Assembly: GCF_000378105.1 (NCBI RefSeq)
Contig: NZ_KB899259.1
Span: forward strand, 1 to 64,000
Direction: 5' to 3'
DNA from: Rubritalea marina DSM 17716
GTDB taxonomy: Bacteria; Verrucomicrobiota; Verrucomicrobiia; Verrucomicrobiales; Akkermansiaceae
DNA length: 64,000 nucleotides
Both the position numbers and the translations under genes were made by a program. Positions 3,654 to 17,003 of this stretch are shown piece by piece; the first letter of the stretch is position 1, and each line of letters begins with the position of its first letter. The notes beneath the pieces are model-generated. The model made no database searches. It was given only the letters and a program-made list of their open reading frames with translations, and was not told the DNA's origin.

Positions 3654-4970
3654 TTAGGACTTAGTGTCATTATTCCCGCGATTCCGCTGCGGCTTCCTCT
3701 TGGCACCGGACTTCGCCCGATCACCCTGTTCCCTTGATCTAGAGGGGCCTCTACCCTTATTTTGAGGTCGACGTGAACGCGACTTAGCGTGCGGCCTCCT
3801 ATTGGAAGTTTTTGGCGGCTGCGGACTGGCTACCTCCGTAGGCTCAAACCCCTGAACCACCACTTGCTTCAGTTGCAATTTGGTTAACTTTTCAATCGCT
3901 CTCAACTGATCGAACTGATCCACACACAACAATGAAATAGCATGTCCGTCTGCCCCAGCTCTTCCTGTGCGCCCGATGCGATGCACATAATCTTCAGCCT
4001 GATCCGGTAGATCAAAATTAACGACCTGAGGTAACTGGCGGATATCAATACCACGTGCCGCAATATCGGTAGCCACAAGGACATTCAACTTACCCGCTTT
4101 GAAGCCATCTAAAGCTTTAGTTCGCGCGCCCTGGCTTTTATCACCATGAATGGCAGAGGATTTCACACCGCATGATTCTAGCTTGCGAGCAAGTCGATTG
4201 GCGCCATGCTTGGTCCGCACAAATACCAGACACTGCTTCCAACCATGTTGTTTAATCAAATGCAACAACAGAGCGCCCCGCTTCACTTTATCCACTGGGT
4301 GCACCACTTGAGTCACTCTCTGCGCAGTGGTATTTCTAGGTGCTACAGATATTTCTACTGGTTTAGAGACTACCTGCTTCGACAATTTACGAATTTCGGG
4401 TGAAAATGTGGCCGAGAAAAGCAAGGTTTGCCGCTTTGCTGGGAGCAACTTCAAGAGCTTCTTAATCTCATGAATGAAGCCCATATCCAACATGCGATCT
4501 GCTTCGTCTAGCACCAGAACCTCAAGATCTTGAAAGCTCACAGCACCTTGATCGCATAGATCAAGCAAGCGCCCCGGAGTCGCCACGAGAACATCCACCC
4601 CCGCACGCAACTTTGCTATTTGAGGTTTGATATTCACCCCACCAAAGGCCACGCCTGTATTTAGATCGAGATACTTAGCGTATTTCTTCACATTATCAGC
4701 CACTTGAGCTGCCAACTCCCTCGTAGGAGTGATCACCAATGCGCGGACCCTCTTGGACTTCGCCCGCTCACCTTCTGAGAGCTTTTGCAGCACGGGCAAG
4801 CTGAAGCCAGCGGTCTTACCCGTCCCAGTCTGAGCCGCAGCTAAAACATCATGCCCTTCTAAAACAATTGGAATCGCTTTCACCTGAATCGGGGAGGGCT
4901 CACGGTACGACTCCTCTCGAAGCACACGCTGGATTTGCGGAGAAAGAGGAAATTCAGAAAAATCTATCAT
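3654..4970 (-). CDS. ATP-dependent DEAD-box RNA helicase, RhlE type
   Basis: 438 residues with all superfamily 2 helicase motifs in order: Q motif ([11 protein letters not shown]), I (AAQTGTGKT), Ia (PTRELAAQ), Ib (TPGRL), II (DEAD), III (SAT), IV-V ([11 protein letters not shown]) and VI ([10 protein letters not shown]). The last 60 or so residues are a highly basic Arg/Lys/Ser tail typical of RhlE proteins that contact RNA non-specifically. It probably remodels rRNA or mRNA structures in ribosome assembly or cold adaptation. It appears monocistronic. Assignment to DEAD-box helicase is certain; the RhlE subgroup is likely from the short core plus basic tail. Confidence 0.95.
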
Positions 4971-5042
4971 AGTAAGTAGCTGCCGACTGAGCAGAACGCG
5001 ACCCTAGGCAGCAATTAAGACGTTGAGCAACAAACAAAACGC

Positions 5043-5077
5043 AAAATCCCTCGCCGGACGTGCCGGCGAGGGATTTT
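5043..5077 (-). terminator. Strong intrinsic terminator downstream of the selenoprotein gene
   Basis: A perfect 15-bp stem (AAAATCCCTCGCCGG with its complement) and a 5-nt loop, with terminal A/T pairs giving a T-run on either strand. It lies 30 nt downstream of the TAA stop of the minus-strand selenoprotein frame. An intact terminator supports that frame being a live transcription unit. Confidence 0.9.
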
Positions 5078-5107
5078 CATATCTTTAGATCTCTCGTATC
5101 TCAGGAA

Positions 5108-5671
5108 TTAAAGGCTAGCCTTCTTCACTGACAGAACGGAGATTTTGTACTTTTTCAATGCATCTGTGACTGCTTTTTCATCGAGCGCCTTGTCTTCTGC
5201 AAGCTGGATCTCGAGATTGCTATTCACATATGCTGCTGCAATATTCGGCAATTTCTCTAAGGCCACACGGGCCTTATCATTTTCAATCGCTCAGGTAGCA
5301 CCTTTCACTTTGAGCATGTAAGCAGCTTCTGCCACTGCTTGCTCAGTCTCTTCTAGAGAAACAAAGCTCACAGGACCTTTACTAAATGCATCCTTTAAAC
5401 CTTGCTCTGTGAGCTTCTCACCATCTTTCATAAAGACTGTGGTGCGAAGACCAGACATTTTGAAGGAATCAACTCCTTTTTGACTTGAGATGGCCGCACG
5501 GACCGCCTTACCGGCGCCTCATCCTCCACCTTTAGCAGTGACAATGAATACCTTCATTGTCTTATTGTCAGCCGCGGCTGCTTGTTGCGTTGCTTCAGCA
5601 AGTGTTACTTCGGTGGTGAGACCACCAAAGGCAAGCACTGCGCACGCTGCGATTAGATATTTCTTTTTCAT
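5108..5671 (-). CDS. Predicted double-selenocysteine exported HMA-domain protein (two in-frame TGA codons)
   Basis: A 187-codon frame from ATG 5671 to TAA 5108, broken only by TGA codons at 51 (5519-5521) and 127 (5291-5293). Residues 1-25 are a signal peptide (MKKKYLIAACAVLAF...). Domain 1 (39-106) starts MKVFIVTAKGGG-U-GAGKAV. Domain 2 (118-185) reads YMLKVKGAT-U-AIENDKARVALEKLP and continues AYVNSN. Both match the HMA pattern (VxGMTCxxC...VExALxxLPGV). Each TGA replaces the first metal-binding Cys, and the second Cys is absent in both domains. There is no frameshift, codon usage is normal, and SECIS-like hairpins follow each TGA. SelB is encoded about 9 kb away, and TGA is a normal stop elsewhere. 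I infer a periplasmic redox or metal/metalloid-binding selenoprotein. The alternative is a pseudogene with two nonsense mutations. Confidence 0.85.
5248..5290 (-). promoter_or_regulatory. Putative bacterial SECIS element for Sec127
   Basis: Starts directly after TGA 127. Lower stem GCGAUU/AAUUGC (6 bp, one G-U), internal loop of 8 and 4 nt, upper stem UAAGGCC/GGCCUUA (7 perfect bp), apical loop CGUGU with G at its second position. The loop begins 21 nt after the UGA. This fits the bacterial SECIS rules (loop roughly 16-37 nt from UGA, G in the first two loop positions). Folded by eye. Confidence 0.75.
5486..5510 (-). promoter_or_regulatory. Putative bacterial SECIS element for Sec51
   Basis: The upper stem GGUC/GGCC (4 bp, one U-G) closes an apical loop CGUGC with G at position 2, 18 nt after TGA 51. 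Below a C-A mismatch the stem continues with AGG/UCU (three pairs, one G-U). The core GGUCCGUGCGGCC matches 11 of 13 nt of the Sec127 core GGCCCGUGUGGCC. A competing short hairpin (CGCC, loop GGUAA, GGCG) sits closer to the UGA, so this fold is less certain than the Sec127 one. Confidence 0.6.
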
Positions 5672-5770
5672 ATCATCGGTAAGATACCTCAATAGAGATC
5701 TTATTCCACAAAAATCGCTTGAATCAAAAAAAGCAAGAATCTCACCCTACACAAGCAAGGATGAGCGCAG

Positions 5771-5857
5771 TGGTACCACCGACCGGACTCGAACCGGTAC
5801 GCCCCGAAGGACAGCAGATTTTAAGTCTGCGGCGTCTACCAATTCCGCCACGGTGGC
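5771..5857 (-). tRNA. tRNA-Leu (anticodon TAA)
   Basis: An 87-nt class II tRNA with encoded CCA. Acceptor GCCACCG pairs with CGGTGGT; anticodon loop CTTAAAA gives anticodon TAA; a long variable arm (TGTCCTTCGGGGCG region) and T-arm GGTTCGAGTCC are visible. It lies between the membrane zinc-finger gene and the selenoprotein gene on the same strand. Confidence 0.97.
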
Positions 5858-15050: not shown

Positions 15051-17003
15051 ATGCACATCATCCTCGGCACTGCTGGTCACATCGACCACGGCAAGTCATC
15101 TCTGACCCAAGCCCTGACAGGTATTGACCCCGATCGCCTGCCCGAGGAAAAGCAACGTGGCGTCACCATCGAGCTTGGCTTCGCCCACCTCACACTCGAG
15201 GAGTTTGAGATTGGCCTCATTGATGTCCCTGGCCACGCCGACTTCATCAACAACATGGTATCCGGAGTAGGCGCTCTCGATATCGCCCTCTTCATCGTGG
15301 CGGCCGACGATGGTTGGATGCCTCAATCCGAGGAACACCTACAGATTTTAAACTACCTTGGCATCGACAATGTCATCGTCGTACTCACCAAATCCGACCT
15401 AGCCGAGGACCTCGAATTCACCACCGAGTTGGTAAAGGAAGAGCTCATTGGTACTTCTCTTGAACACGCCTCAATCTTTCCTGTTTCATCACACACAGGC
15501 GACGGCCTCGATGCTCTGAAAGCAGAAATTGTAAAACGAGCGAGAGACCTAGCGACCTCTCCCAAGCACCACATCCCACGCCTCCATGTTGATCGCGCCT
15601 TCTCACCAAAAGGAGCAGGCACCGTCGTTACCGGCACGCTCACTGGGCAGCCGCTCTCAGCTGGTGAAGAACTCATCAGCCTCCCCGAAGCGCTCAGCGC
15701 CACCATCCGCAAAGTTCAAAACCACCAACAATCAATCGACTCCAGCGTCAGCGGCATGCGCACTGCGCTCAACCTCCCCGACCTCCCACTCAAACAACGT
15801 GGAAAACCTGGCGTTGGCCGAGGCTCCTTGCTCACCCTTCCTGGTCACCTAGAGCCAGTCAGCACCATCGATGTCACACTCACGCGCGCTAAGCGCGAAG
15901 TCAGCGGCCAATCCGCCACAAGCCGAGCAATCAAAAACACCGAGACAGTCGTCCTCCACCACGGCACCAGCCGCATCAAAGCCCGGGTCATTCTCAATGA
16001 CCGCAGCAAGCTCGAACTCGGCGACTCATGCTTTGCCCAATTGCGCCTAGAATCTCCCATACCAGCCTGCATTGGCGATCGCTTCGTCCTGCGCGACGGT
16101 GGCCAACAAGGCACCCTAGCCGGTGGCGCCGTGCTCGATCCCTCCGCGCAAGCTCGTGGCTTCCGCACCCCTGAGCGCAAAGCCTTCCTCGAACTCCGCC
16201 AAGAGCACCCAGAGCAACTGCGCCACATCATCCTGAGCGAACTTAGCAAATCACCTGCTTCTAGCCAGCCCGGCAAAGTCGGCGGCTGGGTTTCTAGCTG
16301 CTGCCCCGTCGCCAACACACCATTCACTCGCGAGCACCAACAAAAGACCTGCGAAAAGCTGGCGAAGGAAAAGAAACTCATCAGCCGAGGCGAGTTTCTC
16401 ATCGCCCCCAAATGGTGGAAAGAATCCGTGGGTGAAGCAGCTCAACTCATTGACCAATGGCACCGCAGCCATCCCGATGCACCCTCGCTACCGCTCAACC
16501 AATGGCGCAGCGAACTCAGTAGCCACTCGATCCCTAGCCAGCTTCATGACATTATCGAAGACCACTTGCTCAAATCCGGCTACATCAAGCAACAAGACGG
16601 GCTCGCCCATGAGAACCACTCGCTCGAACTCCCAGACCGGCTCGTCAGCATCGGCAATAGCTTGCTCAAAAAGTACCAAGACGCCGGACTCGAACCCGCG
16701 CCAAGGATCGACATGGCACCAGACGAGAGTGCCAAGCAAGCACTGCAATTCCTGATCCGCTCAGGCCAAATCACCGAGCTCGACCCCAAGGCCTTGCTCG
16801 CCGCAGATCATTACCAAAGCCTGCGCCACAAGGTTATCGACTTCATCCAAGGCCAAGGCCAAGCCACCGCTGGAGAAATCCGCGAAGCCAGCGGCGCCAG
16901 CAGAAAGTACATCATGCCACTCCTAGAATCTCTAGACGCCGAAGGCATCACCCGCCGCGACGGAGACTACAGAAGCCTCGCCCACACGTCCCAGCGGGGC
17001 TAG
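15051..17003 (+). CDS. selB: Selenocysteine-specific translation elongation factor SelB
   Basis: 650 residues. N-terminal GTPase: G1 GTAGHIDHGKSSL, GVTIELGFA switch I, DVPGHADFI (G3), TKSD (G4). It then has EF-Tu-like domains II-III (FSPKGAGTVVTGTL, GRGSLLTLPG) and a C-terminal array of winged-helix domains (about 400-645) that in SelB bind the mRNA SECIS hairpin. It delivers Sec-tRNA to recoded UGA codons. The IELGFA signature and the winged-helix tail distinguish it from EF-Tu and IF-2. Its presence implies selA, selC and selD elsewhere in the genome; none is in this window. A likely client is encoded at 5108-5671. Confidence 0.95.
   Translation: MHIILGTAGHIDHGKSSLTQALTGIDPDRLPEEKQRGVTIELGFAHLTLEEFEIGLIDVPGHADFINNMVSGVGALDIALFIVAADDGWMPQSEEHLQILNYLGIDNVIVVLTKSDLAEDLEFTTELVKEELIGTSLEHASIFPVSSHTGDGLDALKAEIVKRARDLATSPKHHIPRLHVDRAFSPKGAGTVVTGTLTGQPLSAGEELISLPEALSATIRKVQNHQQSIDSSVSGMRTALNLPDLPLKQRGKPGVGRGSLLTLPGHLEPVSTIDVTLTRAKREVSGQSATSRAIKNTETVVLHHGTSRIKARVILNDRSKLELGDSCFAQLRLESPIPACIGDRFVLRDGGQQGTLAGGAVLDPSAQARGFRTPERKAFLELRQEHPEQLRHIILSELSKSPASSQPGKVGGWVSSCCPVANTPFTREHQQKTCEKLAKEKKLISRGEFLIAPKWWKESVGEAAQLIDQWHRSHPDAPSLPLNQWRSELSSHSIPSQLHDIIEDHLLKSGYIKQQDGLAHENHSLELPDRLVSIGNSLLKKYQDAGLEPAPRIDMAPDESAKQALQFLIRSGQITELDPKALLAADHYQSLRHKVIDFIQGQGQATAGEIREASGASRKYIMPLLESLDAEGITRRDGDYRSLAHTSQRG

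Follow-up and report, generated by a model that had tools for sequence, protein, structure and literature searches.

Can a short reading frame that is interrupted by two in-frame TGA codons encode a protein with two selenocysteines (Sec), and if so, what kind of protein is it? This question is raised by a locus in a window of 64,000 nt, the whole stretch of DNA analyzed here (positions 1 to 64,000 of contig NZ_KB899259.1 of Rubritalea marina DSM 17716, a member of the Akkermansiaceae and one of the marine relatives of Akkermansia). A preliminary description placed at 5108-5671, without giving a strand, an otherwise intact 187-codon frame with a signal peptide, a terminator and two TGA codons in HMA domains, and proposed that it is an undescribed double selenoprotein. 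We examined this locus and its relatives by comparative sequence analysis and structure prediction.

The reading frame and its relatives

On the plus strand, there is no sensible frame at these coordinates; the frame is broken by stops. On the minus strand, a single frame of 187 codons runs from 5671 to 5108, which contains exactly two in-frame TGA codons (codon 51 at 5521..5519 and codon 127 at 5293..5291) and ends with TAA at 5110..5108. It is followed by a terminator-like hairpin at 5077..5043. A likely signal sequence of about 25 residues (5597..5671, end uncertain) was recognized by eye, and this stretch has low pLDDT in the predicted structure. The observation made in the preliminary description is confirmed. 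In the 4900-5800 region, an Rfam search returned four matches at E up to 1, all of them below the gathering score.

Relatives of this gene retain both TGA codons, and the pattern is more than chance. Among 195 genomes of the same family, 51 have a match, of which 50 have a gene with exactly two TGA codons and the remaining one is cut by its contig end after the first TGA. A search of 288 genomes of the order (partly the same genomes) added four genomes from two other families, again with two TGA codons. All 54 complete genes, from 54 genomes of different species, have two Sec (U) positions, which are 75-77 residues apart. Three residues after U, where HMA domains have their second Cys, stands A, G, S, P, T or D in domain 1 and T, K, E, D or I in domain 2. 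Thus, neither CxxC nor U-x-x-U is present in either domain of the 54 proteins, and 51 of 54 have no Cys in the core, counted from 14 residues before the first U. In an alignment of 38 members, G48, U51, G66, S73, G74, G124, U127 and R135 are invariant. In nine pairs of relatives, the stretches between and after the two UGAs are under purifying selection (dN/dS 0.00-0.34 where not saturated). For the window gene and its nearest relative, dN/dS is 0.20 between the UGAs, whereas synonymous sites are saturated after UGA127 (pN/pS 0.27).

In a class sample of 384 genomes, two-TGA genes occur only in the same order, and in a phylum sample of 387 genomes only in the same family. One genome of the class sample had a one-TGA match that carries a TAA and no HMA-like sequence, and it was discarded as a chance hit. 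A scan of GTDB contigs gave at least 14 named loci, including Roseibacillus persicicus KCTC 12988 (NZ_BMXI01000005.1), Roseibacillus and Rubritalea MAGs, and other Akkermansiaceae and Verrucomicrobiales MAGs. Some members of the window's genus (loci L028, L032, L034 and L042, and upstream of L027 and L031) show by eye a lipobox-like Cys after the signal sequence, suggesting that some are lipoproteins. A CTTGC-like box is also often seen by eye in the upstream stretches.

SECIS-type hairpins and the Sec machinery

After each UGA lies a hairpin with a six-pair stem and a five-base loop (N-G-U-N-N), 12 bases downstream of UGA51 (5490..5506, minus strand) and 15 bases downstream of UGA127 (5259..5275, minus strand). 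In 41 genes, the loop G is present in 41 of 41 at both sites, and G-U in 40 and 38, respectively. On 38 sequences, the first stem has 95.2% of cells paired and two-sided changes in four of six pairs, with a covariation score of 0.435 (shuffles 0.255, slid versions at most 0.208). On 36 sequences, the second stem has 97.7% of cells paired and two-sided changes in five of six pairs, with a score of 0.670 (0.273 and 0.206, respectively). However, the measures that count pair types and, for the second stem, the number of pairs with two-sided changes do not exceed the shuffles. RNAalifold predicts exactly these stems from the alignments. In the first element, loop bases 1 and 4 pair in 37 of 38 sequences through three pair types (A-U 18, C-G 17, G-C 2); read by eye, this switches the encoded residues between Arg-Ala and the like, Ser-Ser/Leu and Gly-Leu/Gln, a sign of RNA-level constraint.

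Not all individual hairpins are perfect. All six pairs form in 30 of 41 first hairpins and in 36 of 41 second hairpins; in the window, the first has five pairs and a C-A mismatch, while the second is intact. We also applied our own implementation of the single-sequence bSECIS model as restated in PMC13188914. In total, 32 of 41 first sites and 28 of 41 second sites pass, but so do 70 of 300 random control codons taken from 30 of the genes, and UGA51 of the window fails, with a competing fold favored there. It is the covariation that carries the argument for the two SECIS elements.

The genome encodes the Sec machinery, including tRNA-Sec (54.3 bits, cut-off 47), selA, selB and selD. As stated in the preliminary description, selB lies in the same window, at 15057..16979 on the plus strand (TIGR00475, 290.9 bits, cut-off 242.25). 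The selD gene (contig C4 of this genome, 174005-174934) has one in-frame TGA, and SelD is probably a selenoprotein too. Over the 195 family genomes, selA is found in 70, namely in 48 of the 51 with the two-TGA gene and in 22 of the 144 without it (Fisher p 9e-25). The three exceptions have selB, and it may be inferred that the missing selA is probably an assembly gap. The preliminary description had also named TGA as a normal stop of neighboring genes (uvrA, prc, metF and M23). Over the window as a whole, 6 of 30 stop-to-stop frames of at least 300 codons end in TGA, although some of these frames may not be genes.

Predicted fold and related proteins

HMA similarity of the window protein alone is weak and below the Pfam gathering score (PF00403, E 0.0014, 19.4 bits against a cut-off of 24.8, residues 120-173 only), but 26 of 38 aligned members match HMA at E up to 1 (best 5.8e-8). 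Pfam HydF_tetramer hits in 12 of 38 members (best E 2e-4) were taken as a likeness of ferredoxin-like folds. AlphaFold2 modeling on the 38-row alignment gave a mean pLDDT of 86.6 and a pTM of 0.75. Two beta-alpha-beta-beta-alpha-beta domains are predicted, at residues 38-112 (5336..5560, minus strand) and 116-185 (domain 2 lies at about residues 115-186, 5114..5329, minus strand), with U51 and U127 each in the loop between the first strand and the first helix, the place of CxxC in HMA domains. The linker is about three residues and the modeled arrangement of the domains is uncertain. The best structural matches are HMA domains of copper and zinc ATPases, CopZ and, lower, MerP (Z 10.0 to 8.4 in the 50 rows listed), although Z near 8 can reflect a common fold. 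Most of these rows cover domain 2 and fewer domain 1, and nine are not HMA by title (seven permutants of ribosomal protein S6 and two uncharacterized proteins). Tandem copper-ATPase structures superpose badly over the whole chain (rmsd 11-17 A).

Among NCBIfam models (June 2026), none fits the window protein. The model most often matched by members at E up to 0.01 is the UxxU metal-binding (seleno)protein (NF041115; 31 of 38, best E 3.9e-9), followed by CopZ and MerP (15 of 38 each; best E for MerP 1.8e-5). NF041115, the 'putative mercuric reductase' with two Sec in Table 1 of PMC13188914, shares an HMA-like domain with Sec and is called metal-binding, and the domains of the present protein are its distant kin. 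It differs in having both Sec in one U-x-x-U motif of a 74-position model instead of one Sec in each of two domains, and the window protein scores 17.5 bits against its cut-off of 95. MerP (TIGR02052) was not returned for the window protein at E up to 10, and MbdU (NF045648) was returned neither for the window protein nor among the 16 families listed for the 38 members. The MerT/CopZ-fusion selenoprotein (NF045683), the Sec-containing cation ATPase (U-x-x-C), MerP and MbdU are HMA-type or metal-related proteins, several of them with Sec, but no tandem exported protein with one Sec per HMA domain was seen among their descriptions.

Another family of the class has a single-domain relative of about 112 residues, apparently exported, with one TGA in a U-x-x-C motif (loci L122-L128, 7 of 7 genomes). 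Its profile matches domain 1 with Sec on Sec (probability 97.3, E 2.6e-11). The one member scanned is below the cut-off of every NCBIfam model listed (best MerP, 37.1 bits of 92.55), and this protein is itself a candidate undescribed selenoprotein. A further single-domain gene with one in-frame TGA (motif U-A-G-G-C), also apparently exported, was found beside the two-TGA gene in the same genome (genome G094, contig C17, reverse complement 1883-2269).

No Cys orthologs of the kind expected in the preliminary description, which are the usual Sec/Cys-pair support for a selenoprotein, were found: all 52 match rows in the 195 family genomes contain TGA. Only more distant two-HMA proteins without Sec, with an export signal, were detected in the same bacterial family, where 30 of 137 genomes match at E up to 1e-12. 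Of these, 12 translated in full (L163-L174) have CxxC in both domains and a Cys-rich N-terminal stretch; of seven others retrieved, one has CxxC in both domains, two in one and four in none, and the counts leave out the remaining 11. Four relatives lacking CxxC in both HMA-like domains (L175, L176, L180 and L181) keep the Cys-rich N-terminal stretch. The profile of the CxxC proteins matches over both domains (probability 96.4, E 1.3e-9), with U127 on the first Cys of CxxC and U51, across a gap, on the second Cys. These proteins occur beside the Sec protein in the same genomes (for example G022, G041 and G050) and are thus not its orthologs.

Analysis of the gene neighborhoods of 35 sequences (34 stretches plus the window, several being two records of one genome) revealed no conserved functional partner. 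The commonest cluster, in 11 of 35, is FAD-oxidoreductase-like by eye and looks like synteny of close relatives. A frame at 298-1551 of the window (minus strand) has three repeats that look by eye like FKBP-type peptidyl-prolyl isomerase domains, and a similar frame lies near the gene in one other genome (G066).

Searches of the open-access literature showed no HMA-type double selenoprotein and none from Verrucomicrobia, although an earlier description in subscription papers, preprints or supplements is not excluded. The May 2026 catalogue of 119 families (PMC13188914) has no such entry, and nothing alike was seen in PMC12013277, PMC9312934, PMC1088965 and PMC4807772. A 2008 ocean survey (PMC2398784) lists a 'MerP' selenoprotein (numbers 2, 1, 0 in its table row), which may belong to this family.

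Interpretation of the double-Sec locus

The interpretation given in the preliminary description is supported. Of the conditions set beforehand as refuting it, those examined here did not occur: relatives keep TGA at both positions, their frames are intact, and the genome has selA, selB, tRNA-Sec and selD. It placed both TGAs at the first Cys of the HMA metal site. The predicted fold supports a place of each TGA at the HMA metal loop, and profile alignments put U127 on the first Cys of CxxC, whereas U51 aligns with the Sec of the U-x-x-C relative but, across a gap, with the second Cys of the CxxC proteins. Its claim that the second Cys is missing from both domains holds, which excludes a classic CxxC site; its suggestion of redox or metalloid chemistry remains a hypothesis.

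We consider it nearly certain, on comparative sequence evidence, that both UGAs are decoded as Sec by the SelA/SelB/SelD/tRNA-Sec system of the genome, each through its own downstream SECIS hairpin, and our confidence in this identity together with the HMA architecture is high. What the comparison itself shows is two Sec sites and two SECIS elements; the tandem HMA fold is predicted, export is read from the signal sequence by eye, and the function of the two selenolates, including any metal binding or redox activity, is inferred without protein, selenium or metal data. The most likely function, about as likely as not, is a soft-metal or metalloid site of the MerP/CopZ kind (for example Cu(I), Ag(I), Hg(II)), in which each domain would give one Se ligand and the protein would scavenge or hand on the ion outside the cytoplasm. 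The scaffold, the profile matches, and the U-x-x-C and CxxC relatives point in this direction.

A redox protein, in which the two Sec residues would form a reversible diselenide (within one molecule or between two) or each react alone with peroxides or partner thiols on an HMA scaffold, is possible but less likely, and some other function is not excluded. Since most members have no Cys in the core, Sec could pair only with the other Sec, a partner or a metal, and most known selenoproteins are thought to be redox proteins (PMC13188914); however, the scaffold and the nearest profile matches are metal-binding families and no redox partner gene was found nearby. It is very unlikely that the TGAs are nonsense mutations or real stops. 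TGA does end other frames of the window, and the first hairpin has a mismatch there, but both TGAs persist in all 54 complete genes, with purifying selection after both and covarying hairpins at both. Reassignment of TGA to another amino acid (for example Trp or Gly) is equally improbable and has no support beyond the open frames, given that TGA also ends long frames, the Sec machinery is complete, the gene tracks selA, and SECIS-type hairpins are found at both sites.

The loss of the second ligand in both domains, with both Sec always kept, suggests one shared site or a diselenide. It is thus conceivable, although tentative and somewhat less likely than not, that the two selenolates meet in one composite, cysteine-free site (Se-metal-Se or a reversible diselenide), so that two SECIS elements in one short gene would build a selenium-only binding or redox center on an exported HMA scaffold, in a family without a known Cys ortholog that depends on Sec.

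These results add a well-supported double-Sec family, which represents a new selenoprotein family with a new arrangement rather than a new principle. We infer that ordinary annotation probably misses it, since two UGAs break the frame and methods that look for Sec/Cys pairs have no Cys ortholog to use. It makes directly testable the question of what one Sec per HMA domain, without a second ligand in the same domain, binds or reacts with. It also provides a natural set of 41 genes with paired SECIS elements, whose stem and loop changes could calibrate SelB recognition in Verrucomicrobiota.
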